From the NCBI GenBank assembly GCA_016190505.1, contig JACPQM010000023.1:1-64000 (forward strand): a stretch of DNA of 64,000 bases, written 5' to 3'. The translations under genes and the position numbers were made by a program. The DNA is from Chloroflexota bacterium. GTDB lineage: Bacteria; Chloroflexota; Dehalococcoidia; JACPQK01. Positions 45,974 to 59,999 of the stretch are shown piece after piece. The notes under the pieces are model-generated. The model was not told the origin of the DNA. It saw only the letters and a list, made by a program, of their open reading frames with translations, and searched no databases. How positions within the stretch are numbered: the stretch's first letter is position 1; each line of letters opens with the position of its first letter.

Positions 45974-48694
45974 CTAGGGCTGTTTCGCCCTCGCCTGTAG
46001 CTCATAGAGCTTGGTGAGGGCTTCCAGCGGGGTCAGGGCGTCCAGCTCCAGGCGGGAGAGCTCTTCCAGCAGCTCGTGGTGGGGAGGGAACAGTGGCAAC
46101 TGGGGCGGGCGCTCGCGGCGACGGGTCCGACTAGGGCCGGACTGGTCGCGGCTGGCCTCTAGCTCGGAGAGGATCTCCTCGGCCCGCTGGACCACGGGCC
46201 GGGGCAGGCCGGCCAGCCGAGCAACGTGGATGCCGTAGGACCTGTCGGCGCCGCCTGGTATCACCTGGCGCAGGAACACCACCTGGCCCCCCTCGTCGCT
46301 CACCGCCATCTGCAGGTTCCGCACCCGCGGCAGGTAGCGGGCCAGCTCGGTAAGCTCGTGGTAGTGGGTGGCGAACACCGTGCGCGCCCCCAGGCGGGGG
46401 TGGTTGTGGATGAACTCGGCCACGGCGCGGGCAATGGAGATGCCATCGTAGGTGGAGGTGCCCCGGCCAATCTCGTCCAGCACCAGCAGCGAGCGCGGGG
46501 TGGCCTGGTTCAGGATGGCGGCGGTCTCCATCATCTCCACCAGGAACGTGGAGCGGCCCAGGGCGAGGTCGTCGCGGGCGCCCACCCGGGTGAAGATGCG
46601 GTCCACCAGGCCGATGCTGGCCGCACGGGCGGGGACGAAGCTGCCTACCTGGGCCATGAGCACCATGAGGGCCACCTGGCGCAGGTAGGTGCTCTTGCCC
46701 GACATGTTGGGCCCGGTGAGCACCAGGAGCTGCGCATCCCGGCAGGCGAGGTGGACGTCGTTGGGGACGAAGGGGTCGCTGGTGCTCCGTTCCACCACGG
46801 GGTGGCGCCCGACCTCGATGGTCAGGGTGTCGCCCTCGTTCAGCTCGGGGCGGATGTAGCCGTAGCGGGCCGCTGCCTCAGCCAGGGCGGAGAGCACGTC
46901 GAGTTGGGCGATGGCCGACGCCGTGGCCAGCAGCTCGGCGCCAGCCGCCCCGACCTGGGCGCACACCTGGCGGAACAGGCTGGCCTCCAGGTCGCTCATG
47001 CGCTCCTGGGCGGTGAGCACCAGGGACTCGTACTCCTTCAGCTCGGGGGTGTAGAAGCGCTCCGCCCCCACCAGCGTCTGTTTGCGGATGTAGTGGGCGG
47101 GCACGCGCTCCAAATGGGCGTTGGTCACCTCGATGTAGTAGCCGAAGACCTTGTTGTAGCCCACCTTGAGGGAGCGGATGCCGGTGCGCTCCCGCTCCAC
47201 GCTCTCCAGGTTGGCCAGGTAGTCGCGGGCGCCCCGGGAGGACGAGCGTAGCTCGTCCAACTCCGGGGAGAAGCCCTCCCGGATCAGGCCGCCCTCGGTG
47301 GCTGTCGGTGGAGGGTCGTCCACGATGGCCTTCTCCACAAGCTCGGCTAGCTCGGTGTGAGGTCGCAGGAGCGCTAGCAGGGGGGCCAGAGGCTGTCCCG
47401 GACCTGCTGCCGGGGCTGCAGTGTGGACCTCACCCTCACCCTGCCCTCTCCCATCGAGGGAGAGGGGAACCCCTCTCTCCCCTGGAGGGAGAGAGTTGGA
47501 GAGAGGGGGAGGTTCGCTGCCCAACACGCGTTCTGTCCCCACCCCACGCGCTGCATCCGCCGGGGCCAGTGCCTCGCGCAGGCGGGGGATGGCCTCCAGG
47601 GTGCGCCGCAGCGCGAGCAGCTCTCGGGGCGATACCATCCCGACTTGTCGGGACCGGATTCGGTTGACCAGCCGCTCCAGGTCGGCCAGCGGGCCCAGGA
47701 TGGAGGCGGCCTGTGCCCGCTCCAGGGAGTGGGCATGGAGCCAGGCCACGGCGTCCAGCCGGGCATTGAGCTGGGCCAGGTCCAGCAGAGGTTGCCCGAG
47801 CCAACGCTTGAGCAACCGTCCGCCCATTGCGGTGCGGGTGAGGTCCAGGACGTGCAGTAGCGAGTGTCCCGACTTGTCGGGACCTTCGGGGAAGACGTCC
47901 AGGTTGTGCCGGGTCTGGGCGTCCAGCAGCATGTACTGCCCCGTGGAGTAGGTGGCCAGCCCGGTGAGCTGGCTGAGGGCGCCCTTCTGGGTCTCTTCCA
48001 GGTAGTGGAGGATGGCCCCCGCCGCGCAGACCGCCAGGGGCAATCCCTGGCAGCCGAAGCTGTCCAGGGAAGCGACCTGGAATTGCCGCAGCAGCCGCTC
48101 CTGGGCGGCATCTGGCTCGAAGGCCGGCGCGGGAAGGGGGGTGACGATGGCTGAGGTCTGGGGCGGCTCCCCTCCGAAAGGTGTGAGCACCTCGGCGGGG
48201 TGCAGCCGATCCAGCTCGGCGGCAAGTTGGGCTACTGGCAACTGCGTGGCGGCGAACTCGCCGGTGGTGATGTCGGCGTAGGCAACGCCAGCCTGTTCGC
48301 CCTCAACCACCACGGCGCAGAGGTAGTTGTTGGACTTCTGCTCCAGCATGGCAGGCTCGACCACGGTGCCCGGCGTGACCACGCGCACCACGTCGCGCTC
48401 CACCAGTCCCCTGCCCGGCTCGGTAAGCTGCTCGCAGAGGGCCACCTTGTAGCCCCTGGCGATGAGCTTGGCCAGGTAGGAGTCCAGGGCGTGGTAGGGG
48501 ATCCCCGCCATGGGCACCCTTTGTCCTTTGCCCATCTCGCGGCCGGTGAGGGTGATCTCCAGCTCGCGGGCGGCGATGCGGGCGTCCTCCTCGAAGGTCT
48601 CGTAGAAGTCGCCCAGCCGGAAAAAGAGGATAGCGTTGGGGTGCTGCTGCTTGACGCGCAGGTACTGGCGGCGGAGGGGGGTGACGTCGGACAT
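45974..48694 (-). CDS. mutS: DNA mismatch repair protein MutS, with internal repeat-derived insertion
   Basis: MSDVTPLRRQYLRVKQQHPNAILFFRLGDFYETFEEDA; TGPNMSGKSTYLRQVALMVLMAQVGSFVPA; DEIGRGTSTYDGISIA. Confidence 0.97.
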   Translation of the reverse strand: MSDVTPLRRQYLRVKQQHPNAILFFRLGDFYETFEEDARIAARELEITLTGREMGKGQRVPMAGIPYHALDSYLAKLIARGYKVALCEQLTEPGRGLVERDVVRVVTPGTVVEPAMLEQKSNNYLCAVVVEGEQAGVAYADITTGEFAATQLPVAQLAAELDRLHPAEVLTPFGGEPPQTSAIVTPLPAPAFEPDAAQERLLRQFQVASLDSFGCQGLPLAVCAAGAILHYLEETQKGALSQLTGLATYSTGQYMLLDAQTRHNLDVFPEGPDKSGHSLLHVLDLTRTAMGGRLLKRWLGQPLLDLAQLNARLDAVAWLHAHSLERAQAASILGPLADLERLVNRIRSRQVGMVSPRELLALRRTLEAIPRLREALAPADAARGVGTERVLGSEPPPLSNSLPPGERGVPLSLDGRGQGEGEVHTAAPAAGPGQPLAPLLALLRPHTELAELVEKAIVDDPPPTATEGGLIREGFSPELDELRSSSRGARDYLANLESVERERTGIRSLKVGYNKVFGYYIEVTNAHLERVPAHYIRKQTLVGAERFYTPELKEYESLVLTAQERMSDLEASLFRQVCAQVGAAGAELLATASAIAQLDVLSALAEAAARYGYIRPELNEGDTLTIEVGRHPVVERSTSDPFVPNDVHLACRDAQLLVLTGPNMSGKSTYLRQVALMVLMAQVGSFVPARAASIGLVDRIFTRVGARDDLALGRSTFLVEMMETAAILNQATPRSLLVLDEIGRGTSTYDGISIARAVAEFIHNHPRLGARTVFATHYHELTELARYLPRVRNLQMAVSDEGGQVVFLRQVIPGGADRSYGIHVARLAGLPRPVVQRAEEILSELEASRDQSGPSRTRRRERPPQLPLFPPHHELLEELSRLELDALTPLEALTKLYELQARAKQP
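47429..47512. repeat. CTCACCCTCACC/CTCTCCC-GAGGGAGAGGG repeat inside mutS
   Basis: ctcaccctcaccctgccctctcccatcgagggagaggggaacccctctctcccctggagggagagagttggagagagggggagg; same family as 56516-56622 and 57180-57292. Confidence 0.93.
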
Positions 48695-53702: not shown

Positions 53703-56465
53703 CTACTGTATCTTCTCCACCCGGACGGCGCAGCCCTTGTACTCGGGCAGCTTGGTGCTGGGGTCCAGGGCGGGATTGGTCAGGATGTTGGCCCGCGGGT
53801 CCGGGTAGTGGAACAGCATCCAGGTGAGCCCGGGCGGGCAGTCAAGCGAGATACGTGCCGGCGCGTTGACCTCGCCCCGGCGGCTGACCACGCGGACCAA
53901 CTCGCCATCGGATATGCCCATGGCGCCGGCATCGTCGGGGTTTATCTCGATGTGCCCGTTGCCCTTTATGGCCGCAAACCCAGGCGACTTGTCCATCAGG
54001 TTATCAGTGTCGAAGTGCCAGTAGGAGCGCCCCGTAGTCAGGGTCAGGGGGAAGTCGCTGGTGGGCGGCTCCTGGCAGTGGCGCTCGGCCAGCGGCGTGA
54101 ACAGGCCCTTGCCCCTGGCAACGCCCTCGGCGTGAAGGGACCGCGTGCCAGGATGGTCGGCGGTGGGGCAAGGCCACTGGATGCCAGCCACGCCCGCCTT
54201 GTCCAGCCGCTCATAAGAGATGCCGGCCCAGTCTGGGGTAAGGCGCGCGATCTCGTCCATGACCTGCGAGGGGTGGGTGTAGCCGAAGCCCTGGGCGCCC
54301 ATGCGCTGGGCGAGCTGGCTGATGGTCCACCAGTCTGCCTTTGACTCACCCTTGGGCTCGAAGCACTGGCGTACCCGCTGCACCCGGCGCTCGGTATTGG
54401 TGAAGGTGCCGTCCTTCTCGGCGAAGGAGCAAGCCGGGAGCACCACATCGGCGAGCTGGGCTTCCTCGGTAAGGAAAAGGTCCTGGACCACCAGGAAGTC
54501 CAGCCTCTTGAGGGCGGCGCTCACCCTGGTGGCGTCGGGGTGGGTCTGGGCCACCCGTTCGCCCATGATGAGCATGGCCCTGACCTTACTCTGCTCCACA
54601 GCATGGGGCAAGACCTCGGTGGAGGTCAGGCCACGGCCAGCGGGAAGGGAGCAGGCCCAGGTCTTTTCGAACTTGTCGCGGACTGCCGTGTTGTCCAGGT
54701 GCTGGCCGCCGGTCAGACTGCTTGGGATAGCGCCCATGTCCGTGGCGCCCTGGAGGTTGTTGTGGCCCCACAGGGGGCTCACCCCCGAACCGGGCATGCC
54801 CAGGTTGCCGGTCAGTAATGCCAGGTCGGCCAGGGCCAGCACGTTCTCCGTGCCGTGCTCGTGCTGGGTTATGCCCGTGGCCCAGGTGATCACCGCTGGC
54901 TTCGACGCGGCGAAGGTGCGGGCGGCCTGCGCTATTCTGTCGGCGGGGACGCCGGTTGTCCTGGACACCGTTTCCAGGTCGAAGGCCTGGAGGGAGTTCT
55001 TGAATTCCTCGTAGTTCTCGCAGCGTTCCTCGATAAACTTCCTGTCCTCCAGGCCCTCGTCCACAATCAGTTTCATCATGGCGCCGACGAGGGCGATGTC
55101 GGTGCCTGGGCGTACCTGGAGGAACAAGGTGGCATCCTTGCAGATGTCAATCCAGCGGGGGTTGATGACGATGAGCTTGGCCCCTTTGTTCCGGGCGCGG
55201 GTGTAGCTGAGCTCCAGGACTGAGTGGTTGGCCGTGGTGTTGGTGCCTACGGCCAGGATGCATTTGGCCTGGGCGATGTCGTCCATGGAGTTGGACATGG
55301 CGCCTATGCCGAGCGCTGTGGTCAGGCCGGCCACGGTGGTGGCGTGGCACAGCCTGGCGCAGTGGTCCACGTTGTTGGTCTGCATCACCGCCCGGGCGAA
55401 CTTCATGGCCACGTAGTTGTCCTCGTTGGTGGCCTTGGCCGAGGTGAGCATGGCGAAGGAATCGCCCTTGTGCTCGGCCAGCTTGCTGGCGACAAGGTTG
55501 AGGGCCTCGTCCCAGGAGGCCGGCTCCAGCTTGCCGTCCCGCCTAATCAGGGGGGTGGTCAGGCGCTGGGGGCTCTGGGCGAAATCCAGGGAGAACCTGC
55601 CCCGGACGCAGGCCTGGCCCCGGTTAGCGGGCGCGTCCCGGTTGGGGGTGCAACGGACGATCTTGTCGTTCTTGATGGCTAGGTCGAGGACGCAGCCCAC
55701 GCCGCAATAGGGGCAGGTAGTGGTCACTGTCCGCTCGGTGAAGCCGTCCCAGCGCCCGGAGCGCTCCAGCAGCGCGGCGCAGGGGCAGGCGTCCACGCAG
55801 GCGCCGCAGAAGATGCACCGGGAGTTTACGAGCGGGACGTTGTACAGGGTGCCGGGCACGGTAGGGTTGCCCCGGCTGGTCATGGAGATGGCCTGCACGT
55901 TGCGGACCTCGTCGCACATGCGAACGCAGCGGGCGCACACGATGCAGTAGTTGTACTCCCGGTCGTAGTACGGATCCTGCTGGTTGACCGGGTAGCCCTT
56001 GGGGTAGAAGGGCAGCTCCGAGCCATGCAGGTTTACATAATGCGAGACCTCTTGAAGCTCGCAGCGCTTGTTCTTGGGGCACAGCACGCAACGCGGGGTG
56101 ACGCCGGCACTCCGCAGGCAGACCATGGTGGGGTCGCAGTGGTATAGTCGCCAGCAGGTGAGACAGACGTTGGGGTGCTCGGTGATCAGCAAGGCCAGGA
56201 TCTGGCGGCGGAGCTGCTGGACCTCGGGGGTCTCGGTGCGCACGATCATGCCCTCGGATACGGGGGTGGTGCACGAGGCGGGGAAGCCGGGCATCTTCTC
56301 GATCTGCACCAGGCAGATGCGGCAGGCGCCGAAGGGCTTCATGTCGCGATGCCAGCACAGCGTGGGGATGTAGATGCCGTTGGCCCGGGCAGCCTCTAGC
56401 ACGGTCATCCCGCGCTGGGCGACCACTGGCTTTTCGTTGATGGTAAGGTTTATGCCGTCGGCCAT
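53703..56465 (-). CDS. fdhA: Formate dehydrogenase alpha subunit (molybdopterin, NuoG-like N-terminus), Cys variant
   Basis: 2Fe-2S PTLCWHRDMKPFGACRICLVQI; ferredoxin motifs; CPYCGVGCVLDL; DHCARLCHATTVAGL; SMDDIAQAKCILAVGTNT. Confidence 0.93.
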   Translation of the reverse strand: MADGINLTINEKPVVAQRGMTVLEAARANGIYIPTLCWHRDMKPFGACRICLVQIEKMPGFPASCTTPVSEGMIVRTETPEVQQLRRQILALLITEHPNVCLTCWRLYHCDPTMVCLRSAGVTPRCVLCPKNKRCELQEVSHYVNLHGSELPFYPKGYPVNQQDPYYDREYNYCIVCARCVRMCDEVRNVQAISMTSRGNPTVPGTLYNVPLVNSRCIFCGACVDACPCAALLERSGRWDGFTERTVTTTCPYCGVGCVLDLAIKNDKIVRCTPNRDAPANRGQACVRGRFSLDFAQSPQRLTTPLIRRDGKLEPASWDEALNLVASKLAEHKGDSFAMLTSAKATNEDNYVAMKFARAVMQTNNVDHCARLCHATTVAGLTTALGIGAMSNSMDDIAQAKCILAVGTNTTANHSVLELSYTRARNKGAKLIVINPRWIDICKDATLFLQVRPGTDIALVGAMMKLIVDEGLEDRKFIEERCENYEEFKNSLQAFDLETVSRTTGVPADRIAQAARTFAASKPAVITWATGITQHEHGTENVLALADLALLTGNLGMPGSGVSPLWGHNNLQGATDMGAIPSSLTGGQHLDNTAVRDKFEKTWACSLPAGRGLTSTEVLPHAVEQSKVRAMLIMGERVAQTHPDATRVSAALKRLDFLVVQDLFLTEEAQLADVVLPACSFAEKDGTFTNTERRVQRVRQCFEPKGESKADWWTISQLAQRMGAQGFGYTHPSQVMDEIARLTPDWAGISYERLDKAGVAGIQWPCPTADHPGTRSLHAEGVARGKGLFTPLAERHCQEPPTSDFPLTLTTGRSYWHFDTDNLMDKSPGFAAIKGNGHIEINPDDAGAMGISDGELVRVVSRRGEVNAPARISLDCPPGLTWMLFHYPDPRANILTNPALDPSTKLPEYKGCAVRVEKIQ

Positions 56466-56515
56466 AGGCGGGCCTCCTCCGCTGTCGTGCTCTGAGACTG
56501 GGGGTGATGTGGGGT

Positions 56516-56622
56516 CCCCCTCTCCCTCGACGGGAGAGGACTAAGGTGAGGGTGAGGCATGCCCATGAACACGTTCAGCCTCCCCCTCACTCTCGCTCTC
56601 TCCCGCTAGGGGAGAGAGGGGA
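56516..56622. repeat. Direct repeat R, right copy, flanking SET gene
   Basis: ccccctctccctcgacgggagaggactaaggtgagggtgag...cctccccctcactctcgctctctcccgctaggggagagagg. Confidence 0.95.
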
Positions 56623-57255
56623 TGCAATCATCGTCTGGTATTCGTCAATCATCTCTTGGATGTACAAAGACATGTAGCCAGCGTTACGCGCCTGGAACGC
56701 GGGGTCCTTCCAATCATCGCTGGTCACCCGGCCCCGGCATGAGGGCGCACCGCAGTGGCACTCGACGTCGAGGCCGATGGTGTCCGTGGTGGCGTAGTCG
56801 AAGGTCAGCTCCTCACCTGGCGCGATGTCCCGGCGGGCCAACACAATGATCTGGCCTTTCACGCCGCAAGAGGGCTCGCAGGAGTGGTTCATGTAGTCCA
56901 CAGGCTCCATCTCTGCGGCCGTCCTTGGCCCGACAAAGAGGTCATGCCAGACCTGGACCGGGTGCTCCCGCACTTCCGGGGGCAGTTGCTGCATGTCTTC
57001 CCTGGTGATAAGGTGGCCGCCCCAGACGGCGACCAGCTCGCCACTGGCGATTGCCTGTACGGCTATGATGCCTTTGCCGGAGATATGGCTAGGGCCTACG
57101 GCAACCTTGCGTGTCAGGTAGGAAGCAAAAAGGTTGACGTTCGGGATGTCATTGCCCCTGACAGGAGGGGTGCGGAGACTCCCCCTCTCCCTCGACGGGA
57201 GAGGATTAAGGTGAGGGTGAGGTCCGCCGGTGACCACGTCCAACCTCCCCCTCAC
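56587..57255 (-). CDS. SET-domain protein (putative protein-lysine methyltransferase); true start uncertain
   Basis: SYLTRKVAVGPSHISGKGIIAVQAIASGELVAVWGG...VDYMNHSCEPSCGVKG...RDIAPGEELTFDYATTD...CHCGAPSCRG. Confidence 0.88.
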   Translation of the reverse strand: MRGRLDVVTGGPHPHLNPLPSRERGSLRTPPVRGNDIPNVNLFASYLTRKVAVGPSHISGKGIIAVQAIASGELVAVWGGHLITREDMQQLPPEVREHPVQVWHDLFVGPRTAAEMEPVDYMNHSCEPSCGVKGQIIVLARRDIAPGEELTFDYATTDTIGLDVECHCGAPSCRGRVTSDDWKDPAFQARNAGYMSLYIQEMIDEYQTMIASPLSPSGRERE

Positions 57256-57292
57256 TCTCGCTCTCTCCCGCCAGGGGAGAGAGGAGATACTT
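57180..57292. repeat. Direct repeat R, left copy, flanking SET gene
   Basis: ccccctctccctcgacgggagaggattaaggtgagggtgagg...cctccccctcactctcgctctctcccgccaggggagagagg. Confidence 0.95.
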
Positions 57293-57377
57293 CCTCCCGC
57301 TGTCGAAGCTGTTTCAAGTATGAAAGATGTTGAGGCAGTGCGGTCCTCCCCGCCGGGGCGGGCACGGAGTCCCGCCC

Positions 57378-57674
57378 CTACACAAGATAATCACCCATTC
57401 TTCCTGTGTGCAGCTTTATCTCGTTTCGTTTGAGCACTTTCTCTATCGCAGCGGGAATGTCCATCAACGAGCCAAAGTGTGCTCCGCGCCCTTGCGACGG
57501 AATTCCATGCGATGCATGCTTCGTGATATATACGATGCCGTTTGTCCAGGCGTGTTTGGGTAGGATATCCCCTTTCGCGCTGGCGCCAGACATCCCACCA
57601 GTGAAAAAGCGAATCCTGACCTCGATCGTTCTTTCATTAGCGGCGGCTTTGATGATTCTGCTTGTCCCAGGCAT
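57378..57674 (-). CDS. Hypothetical protein (98 aa)
   Basis: Intact ORF MPGTSRIIKAAANERTIEVRIRFFTGGMSGASAKGDILPKHAWTNGIVYI... Confidence 0.5.
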   Translation of the reverse strand: MPGTSRIIKAAANERTIEVRIRFFTGGMSGASAKGDILPKHAWTNGIVYITKHASHGIPSQGRGAHFGSLMDIPAAIEKVLKRNEIKLHTGRMGDYLV

Positions 57675-57689: not shown

Positions 57690-59366
57690 CTATTCTTTGC
57701 CCATGTCGCACTGGCCGGTGGGGCAGCGCTTGTCCTTGACGTGGGCCTCGTATTCTTCCTTGAAGTAGCGCAGGCTGGCCCGCAAGGGGGTACCGGCGAG
57801 CTGGCCCAGTCCGCATAGAGAGCCGGAGGTCATGGTCTGTGCCAGCTCCAGGATGCGGTCCAGGTGCTCAGGCCGGCCCTGGCCGTGGACAATGGCGTCG
57901 TAGATCTCCAGTACCCGCTTGGTGCCCACCCGGCATGGTATGCACTTGCCACAGGACTCCTTCTGGTTGAAGGCGGTGAGCAGACGGGTGAACTGCACGA
58001 TGCACTGGTCCTGGTCCAGCACCACATTCCCCCCGGAGCCAAGCATGGCCCCGGTCCCCGCCAGGGAGTCGAAGTCCAACACCATATCCAGGGCGGAAGG
58101 TGGCAGGAACCCGCCCAGCGGGCCACCAAGCTGCATGGCCTTGAGGGCCTTGCCGTTGGGGATACCTCCGCCCACCACTTCGATAGCCTGGCGCAGGGTG
58201 ATGCCCATGGGCACCTCGCTGAGGCCGGGCCGGACGATGTTACCCGAGAGGCACAGCAGGATGGTCCCCTTGCTCTTCTCGGTGCCGTAGCTGGCGTACC
58301 ACTGGGCGCCCCGGGCCATGATGATGGGCGCGAAGGCATAGCTCTTGACGTTGTTCACGTTGGTGGGCTTGCCGAAGATGCCCACCTGGGCCGGGAACGG
58401 CGGGCGGGCGCGAGGGAATCCACGCTTGCCCTCCACTGACTCCATGAGGGCGGTCTCCTCGCCGCACTCGTAGGCCTCACCCGTCTCTTTGATCTCGATG
58501 TCGTAAGAAAAACTGCTGCCCAGGATGTTCTGGCCCAGCAGGTTGTTGGCGTACATCTGCTCCAGGGCGCGACGCAGCCGGGCCACCGACAGCGCGGACT
58601 CTGTGCGCACGTGGATAAAGCCCTTGACGGCTCCAGTGGCGTAGCCGCAAATGGTCACGCCCTCGAGCACCAGATGGGGGTTGCTCTCCATGAGACGGCG
58701 GTCGTTATAGGCGCCGGGGTCGCCCTCTTCCGCGTTGCAGGCAACGTATTTCACCGGGCCGGGTGCGGTGGCCAGGAACTCCCACTTGCGGCCCACGGGA
58801 AAAGCGGCGCCACCCCGGCCCCGCAGTCCGGAGTTCTTTACTTCGTCCAGTACTTGCTGTGGAGTCATGCCCAGCGCGCGACCGAGTCCCGTGTAGCCTC
58901 CGTTGGCGATGTAGTGGTCTATGTCCCACGGGTCTATAGAGCCGCAGTCCTGGGTGGCGATCCGGGTCTGGAGGCGCAGCCCCGGGTCCTCCAGCAGGTT
59001 AGGCAGGCCCCAGCCGTTGGAGTCGCCCCAGGTGCCCAGGGCCATGTCCCGGGGACGGTCGCTGGTCAGGGCGTCCTCAACGACGGCGGGTACTCTGGTC
59101 GGCGTCACCGACCCATATACTATTGGCGGCTTGCCCGGCCTGATAACGCGGACCAGGACCTCGGAGGAGCACAATCCCAGACAGCCCACGGGCATAACCG
59201 TGGCCGAGAGGTGGCGCCGCTCGATCTCCTGGCGGAAGGCGGAGAGCACCCCCTGGGAGCCCTGGGCACGGCCGCAATCGGCATCCCCCACCAGGATACG
59301 GGGCGCCTGTTCCAGGGCCTCCCACTTGGCTTTGGCTGTCTCCTGGAGAGCGCGCAGGTCTGCCAT
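57690..59366 (-). CDS. NuoF-like NADH dehydrogenase/NAD-reducing subunit
   Basis: NSGLRGRGGAAFPVGRKWEF; VACNAEEGDPGAYNDR; GAYECGEETALMES-like motif; ESCGKCIPCRVGTKR. Confidence 0.95.
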   Translation of the reverse strand: MADLRALQETAKAKWEALEQAPRILVGDADCGRAQGSQGVLSAFRQEIERRHLSATVMPVGCLGLCSSEVLVRVIRPGKPPIVYGSVTPTRVPAVVEDALTSDRPRDMALGTWGDSNGWGLPNLLEDPGLRLQTRIATQDCGSIDPWDIDHYIANGGYTGLGRALGMTPQQVLDEVKNSGLRGRGGAAFPVGRKWEFLATAPGPVKYVACNAEEGDPGAYNDRRLMESNPHLVLEGVTICGYATGAVKGFIHVRTESALSVARLRRALEQMYANNLLGQNILGSSFSYDIEIKETGEAYECGEETALMESVEGKRGFPRARPPFPAQVGIFGKPTNVNNVKSYAFAPIIMARGAQWYASYGTEKSKGTILLCLSGNIVRPGLSEVPMGITLRQAIEVVGGGIPNGKALKAMQLGGPLGGFLPPSALDMVLDFDSLAGTGAMLGSGGNVVLDQDQCIVQFTRLLTAFNQKESCGKCIPCRVGTKRVLEIYDAIVHGQGRPEHLDRILELAQTMTSGSLCGLGQLAGTPLRASLRYFKEEYEAHVKDKRCPTGQCDMGKE

Positions 59367-59370
59367 TGGT

Positions 59371-59916
59371 CTATCCCTCGCTTCGACCGCCCCGATGCAT
59401 CGGGGCGGTCTCCGGGCGTCCCCGGGCCAGGGCCTGGTCTACCTGTTCTGGAGCTACCAGGCCCACCGGCTCCGTATCCACCGCCAGGGCCGGCGCATTG
59501 GCGCAGGTCCCCAGGCAGGAGACGGTCTCCAGGAAGTACTGGCCGTCGGGCGTGGTGCCCCCCACTGGCACGCCCAGGTGCCCTTCCACAGCCCTCAGCA
59601 GGCGCAGCGCCCCGCGGACGTGGCAGGCGGGGCCCGTGCACACACGGACGGCGTGCTGCCCGTGAGGCTTGGCCCGGAGGTCGCCGTAGAAGCTGACCAC
59701 CCCGTAGACGAAGTTGGGGGACACGCCCAGCAACCGGGACACCTCGCGGGCGGCGGCTTCGGGCACGTAACCCAAGCGCTCCTGTATCCGCTGCAGAGCG
59801 GGAATGACCTGGTCGCGCTGTCCGGCGAAGGGTTTCAGGACCTCCCTTATCTGCGCCTCCAGGCCAGTCTCGGGCACATCTTTGGCGGTAATGGGCTCAA
59901 GACCTCGGGGGGACAT
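59371..59916 (-). CDS. NuoE-like 2Fe-2S thioredoxin-fold subunit
   Basis: RIQERLGYVPEAAAREVSRLLGVSPNFVYGVVSFYGDLRAKPHGQHAVRVCTGPACHVRGA...VSCLGTCANAPAL. Confidence 0.95.
   Translation of the reverse strand: MSPRGLEPITAKDVPETGLEAQIREVLKPFAGQRDQVIPALQRIQERLGYVPEAAAREVSRLLGVSPNFVYGVVSFYGDLRAKPHGQHAVRVCTGPACHVRGALRLLRAVEGHLGVPVGGTTPDGQYFLETVSCLGTCANAPALAVDTEPVGLVAPEQVDQALARGRPETAPMHRGGRSEG
59385..59410. repeat. Perfect 26-bp palindrome at the 3' end of the nuoE-like gene
   Basis: GACCGCCCCGATGCATCGGGGCGGTC equals its reverse complement. Confidence 0.95.
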
Positions 59917-59999
59917 AGCTCCTCCTCGTTGTGGCCCCGACACGTTGGGGCATAGGGGCAACGCGCTATCCCTGGCATTCGTAGGGAAATATATCACAC

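Follow-up and report, generated by a model that had tools for sequence, protein, structure and literature searches.

This locus raises the question of whether a gene for a SET-domain protein, packed between two copies of a ~110-bp repeat, has moved as a single-gene cassette. A sequence-only reading of the window, by which we mean the whole 64,000-nt stretch of Dehalococcoidia DNA analysed here (Table 1), had proposed a repeat-mobilised cassette whose open reading frame (ORF) begins and ends inside the repeats. Our analysis favours a different history. Two members of a dispersed palindrome family were very probably inserted independently of each other beside a SET gene that was itself added between nuoF and fdhA, and the cassette-like look of the locus most likely results from these two separate repeat insertions.

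Table 1 Features of the window around the SET gene.
Feature	Position	Strand	Remarks
Repeat-family member in mutS	47422..47532	-	Halves in B-A order; in frame inside mutS (45974-48694, -)
fdhA, formate dehydrogenase alpha subunit	53703..56465	-	TIGR01591 above cut-off
Repeat copy 1	56514..56623	+	Near-palindrome of ~108 bp, in which half A and an inverted half B enclose a variable loop of ~20 nt; gives the last codons and stop of the SET ORF
SET ORF	56587..57255	-	Mechanical call from the first GTG; first and last codons are repeat sequence
SET core	56608..57135	-	Repeat-coded start left out; AlphaFold2 on an alignment of 22
Out-of-frame ATG	57150..57152	-	Close to the start point of homologs; shifted +1 from the frame of the SET core; may be the true start or a former one
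Repeat copy 2	57179..57288	+	90% identity with copy 1 across 109 nt; nearest relative is a copy on contig C53 (95%)
Second, shorter dispersed palindrome (GGGGCGGGCACGGAGTCCCGCCCC; CCCCGCCGGGGCGGGCACGGAGTCCCGCCCC)	about 57345..57381		14 matches in the genome
98-aa ORF	57378..57674	-	Outside its own genome, 4 of 393 class genomes have a homolog; an additional ORF between nuoF and fdhA
nuoF-like subunit	57690..59366	-	
nuoE-like subunit	59371..59997	-	

The SET ORF is indeed flanked by two copies of one repeat in the same orientation, aligned over 109 nt (56515-56623 and 57180-57288) with a start-to-start distance of 665. This shared orientation says little, since each copy is itself a near-perfect palindrome in which conserved arms A and B enclose the variable loop. 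In an identity matrix, the right-hand copy is 95% identical to the C53 copy and 91% to a copy on contig C8, and 88% identical to its partner. The flanks of the two copies are unrelated, with no shared sequence or target duplication around either, and no target-site duplication of the kind that defines a composite transposon surrounds the whole unit. Two insertions are the best reading of the pair, given the separate closest relatives, the unlike flanks and the missing target duplication. The repeat folds far better than shuffled sequence (z = -5.9 as RNA and -3.8 as DNA), and this folding model predicts that the RNA of each copy adopts a very stable hairpin between cistrons. As two such hairpins would surround the SET cistron within a co-directional gene cluster, an effect on the transcript is likely, and we suggest that they act on expression or mRNA stability rather than on mobility. 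The repeat is not unusually stop-free, an average of 2.5 of its six reading frames being open, compared with 2.3 when one copy is shuffled.

The repeat is dispersed through the genome, a 3.23-Mb draft in 100 contigs that holds 35 blastn matches and, by covariance model, 14 full-length elements. The true copy number is probably higher, since at least seven contigs (C7, C46, C74, C78, C88, C89 and C94) end in a copy or within ~35 bp of one, as is expected of an assembly-breaking repeat. Exact palindromes number 65, against three in a reversed control, and matches to the repeat query were found in 22 of the 60 class genomes searched. Twelve of the 14 elements examined lie outside long genes, where, the SET pair apart, they stand 23-300 bp from the nearest ORFs; the exceptions are in mutS and mfd. 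A weak tandem-like array of repeat-related sequences with ~160-bp spacing was also seen (L054 1432-1883; G000:C94:7429-8017).

Half A of the repeat matches the published type A intrastrand triplex motif (TM) of E. coli at 32/35 and 31/35 positions, far above shuffles, and E. coli chromosomes match the repeat at 80-95% identity over ~40 nt. The TM core (CCCTCTCCC-loop-GGGAGAGGG-loop-GGGTGAGGG) is present. In E. coli, A and B types of the motif are paired as inverted repeats, and the motif has been linked to local instability (PMC4666352); CCCTCTCCC-XX(X)-GGGAGAGGG palindromes have also been reported from Enterobacter sp. 638 (PMC2869309). Judged from its sequence, each repeat is an inverted pair of this putative CCCTCTCCC...GGGAGAGGG motif in a REP-doublet-like layout. 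The sequence likeness to the E. coli elements lies in the 32/35 match of half A, the inverted A and B pairs and a dispersed, mostly intergenic distribution. What sets the present family apart is the complete A-loop-B unit of ~108 bp, of which there are 14 full-length copies whose arms are conserved while the loop varies; two of its members lie inside long genes. REPINs and BIMEs (PMC3116915) offer a further parallel: here too, palindromic units stand inverted on either side of a short spacer, copies are dispersed outside genes, and the genome has a clear gene for a REP-associated tyrosine transposase (RAYT; NF047646, 198 bits; L114 3306-3848, G000:C59). Unlike a cognate RAYT flanked by its own repeat, however, this gene has no copy in the ~3 kb searched on either side, and the units here are longer and carry the TM core. 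The genome also encodes an IS200/IS605-type transposase. An E. coli-type triplex palindrome is hereby documented as an abundant family in Dehalococcoidia.

Is the bracketing of the SET gene more than chance? Pair statistics rest on a 464-kb sample of the genome, window included, in which palindrome clusters occur at ~43 per Mb; two gene-sized neighbouring pairs were seen there against 1.44 expected at random. The SET-flanking pair is the only close pair among the full-length elements. A comparable arrangement was found in G024, a genome from another family of the class, where a SET gene 42.5% identical to that of the window lies between a DnaJ-domain gene and dnaA and is bracketed by two 32-nt palindromes with the same core, 97% identical and 615 bp apart (L089 4260-4291 and 4875-4906; G024:C17). 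Upstream of its SET core, the G024 homolog lacks any start codon in frame. Among about 40 SET homolog loci searched, bracketing of this kind occurs only here and in the window. At the palindrome densities of the 464-kb sample, independent insertion would yield a second bracketed SET gene with a chance of roughly 1-2%, an estimate that is rough because the G024 regions were chosen for containing palindromes. We regard the G024 bracketing as unexplained and as no proof of mobility.

The SET gene lies, as first described, inside a formate dehydrogenase/NuoEF cluster, between fdhA and nuoF of a nuoE-nuoF-fdhA array. Where nuoF and fdhA are adjacent in class relatives, the gap between them measures 68-522 bp (median 256) and holds no SET gene, and a second nuoE-nuoF-fdhA cluster in the same genome (contig C64) has a SET-free gap of 556 bp. 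These SET-free junctions come from distant class relatives and the in-genome paralog, none from the same genus, family or order. They bear out the late arrival that the cassette proposal implied for the SET gene, and the 98-aa ORF is a late arrival on the same grounds. The locus without the cassette was thus found in so far as it lacks the SET gene; an empty site with a single repeat was noted at none of these junctions, whose gaps were not individually scanned. The 98-aa ORF belongs to a sporadic, unnamed family and has 51% G+C, against 66-68% in neighbouring genes. Since the gap also holds this ORF and a second dispersed palindrome, it is an insertion-tolerant site, and because both lie outside the bracketed unit, the added DNA comprises more than one gene. 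A promoter scan of the gap and an Rfam search of the window returned no match. We propose that horizontal transfer or translocation brought the SET gene into the nuoF-fdhA gap, and that two members of the repeat family would have been inserted separately next to it.

The gene between the repeats is a SET-domain gene, as had been read, with a Pfam match to PF00856 (E = 2.6e-14) in the minus-strand ORF. The NHSC.P, EELTFDY and C.C....C motifs are all kept in the SET core, and in an alignment with 21 homologs (n = 22 sequences) every invariant residue is retained. An alignment-based AlphaFold2 model has a mean pLDDT of 94.5 for the residues coded by 56608-57135, confidence dropping only in the repeat-coded tail, and Foldseek matches it to MLL, NSD, ASH1L and bacterial BurB. 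The predicted SET fold needs no residues from the repeat-coded start to be complete. With the SET profile, the catalytic motifs and the fold all present, the protein is a predicted SAM-dependent methyltransferase and is probably active.

The ends of the ORF are a different matter. Repeat copy 1 does encode the final residues (..SPLSPSGRERE) and the stop codon. The claim that the sole in-frame ATG lies in the other copy was mistaken, however: the start codon inside copy 2 is a GTG, and no in-frame ATG occurs anywhere upstream of the SET core. Because homologs begin only a few residues ahead of the SET core and the fold is complete without repeat residues, the repeat-coded ends look like ORF read-through, and the repeat-coded N terminus is the least likely native start of the protein. 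The ATG near the homologous start is one frame off, which suggests a frame change in the gene or in the assembly. A T5 run (57127-57131) lies between this ATG and the SET core, and the two together may reflect a sequencing error, a real frameshift or an unusual start. In the two-insertion history that we favour, the copy at the 3' end would have replaced or extended the native end of the gene, supplying tail and stop, and the copy at the 5' end would stand just upstream of the native start, merely in open frame. The locus shows how gene calling can be misled by a dispersed palindrome, which can mimic the look of a cassette and give predicted proteins artificial ends.

Two other accounts of these ends were weighed. 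Translation from a GTG in copy 2, with the repeat-coded peptides part of a working protein, would fit the purine run GGGGGAGG about 6 nt before the second GTG and the lack of an in-frame ATG, GTG or TTG nearer the SET core. We consider it unlikely, given where homologs start, a predicted fold that loses confidence only in the repeat-coded tail, and the ATG that sits one frame off near the homologous start. That the gene is instead a decaying pseudogene, its start lost by frameshift and its end cut by the repeat, could be argued from the out-of-frame ATG followed by the T5 run and from a stop codon taken from repeat sequence. Decay is, however, quite unlikely in a gene that keeps all residues invariant among the 22 aligned sequences, has no internal stops and is predicted to fold with high confidence.

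The remaining alternatives concern mobility. Movement of the SET gene as one unit with both palindromes, through a Y1/RAYT-type transposase acting on both hairpins, would account for the tight bracketing and for the missing SET gene at this site in relatives; the RAYT and IS200/IS605-type transposase genes could supply the enzyme, and the G024 gene, which comes from another family, lies between dnaJ-like and dnaA genes and has palindromes of this class on both sides, would be a second case. Yet the repeats are dispersed, the two copies are not mutual closest relatives and lack a target duplication, and pairs occur near chance density. The other SET homolog loci among the roughly 40 searched have no such bracketing, the genome has one SET gene only, and a second extra ORF lies outside the repeats. 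The cassette of the sequence-only reading is therefore not upheld, and a transposed unit of this kind is highly improbable. We likewise give very little credence to the broader proposal that pairs of triplex-type palindromes captured or transported SET genes at least twice, in the window genome and in G024, by recombination or hairpin-directed transposition, which would make them single-gene vehicles. Recombination guided by the repeats offers another route, in which incoming DNA with a SET gene beside a repeat would have undergone recombination with a repeat already present between nuoF and fdhA, so that one copy was left on each side. This would explain both the bracketing at two unrelated loci and the different closest relatives of the two copies, and the tie of the triplex motif to local instability in E. 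coli (PMC4666352) speaks for it. It is nonetheless very unlikely, as it calls for donor loci and for a repeat residing at the junction that lacks SET, and neither was found (in distant relatives, with gaps not individually scanned).

The distribution of SET homologs was also surveyed. The window SET gene is the only one in its genome, and homologs occur sporadically across the class, in 27 of 393 genomes sampled, and more often across the phylum, in 58 of 400. The nearest, 60% identical, immediately follows a Lon protease gene. The three loci inspected have different neighbours (Lon protease; alcohol dehydrogenase/esterase; DnaJ-like/DnaA) and thus provide no conserved neighbourhood as a clue to substrate. 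A scan of genome contigs for close relatives gave one distant match only, plasmids gave distant matches (26-39% identity among the matches listed), and a search of viral contigs found no mobile context for the gene; PADLOC had no match to the SET protein or the 98-aa ORF. The window protein resembles described bacterial SET-domain proteins (PMC3980110) in its compact SET domain and post-SET cysteine motif, and BurB (9l4t) is a solved bacterial structure found for it by both sequence and fold searches. As the titles of the solved BurB complexes name methionine and SMM/SAM, a protein substrate is not to be assumed for the window protein.

Two members of the repeat family lie in frame inside long genes. 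In mutS, the repeat-coded stretch corresponds to protein residues 388-425, and residues 384-438 of the window MutS face only about three residues in solved MutS. As read from this alignment, the segment is a clean in-frame insertion of ~51 aa, mostly repeat-coded. The gene mfd (TRCF, 1277 aa) carries a full-length copy in frame at residues 330-366 (L041 3970-4078; G000:C31:7969-8078), which is probably likewise an in-frame insertion, its flanks being too divergent to prove a clean one. Both recall the Rickettsia palindromic elements (reviewed in PMC10969869), which also lie in frame within genes, add a peptide and keep the frame open. The present family differs from these in host phylum and in being mostly intergenic, and the two are likened here by layout. 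A clean in-frame repeat insertion in a mismatch-repair gene is directly testable.
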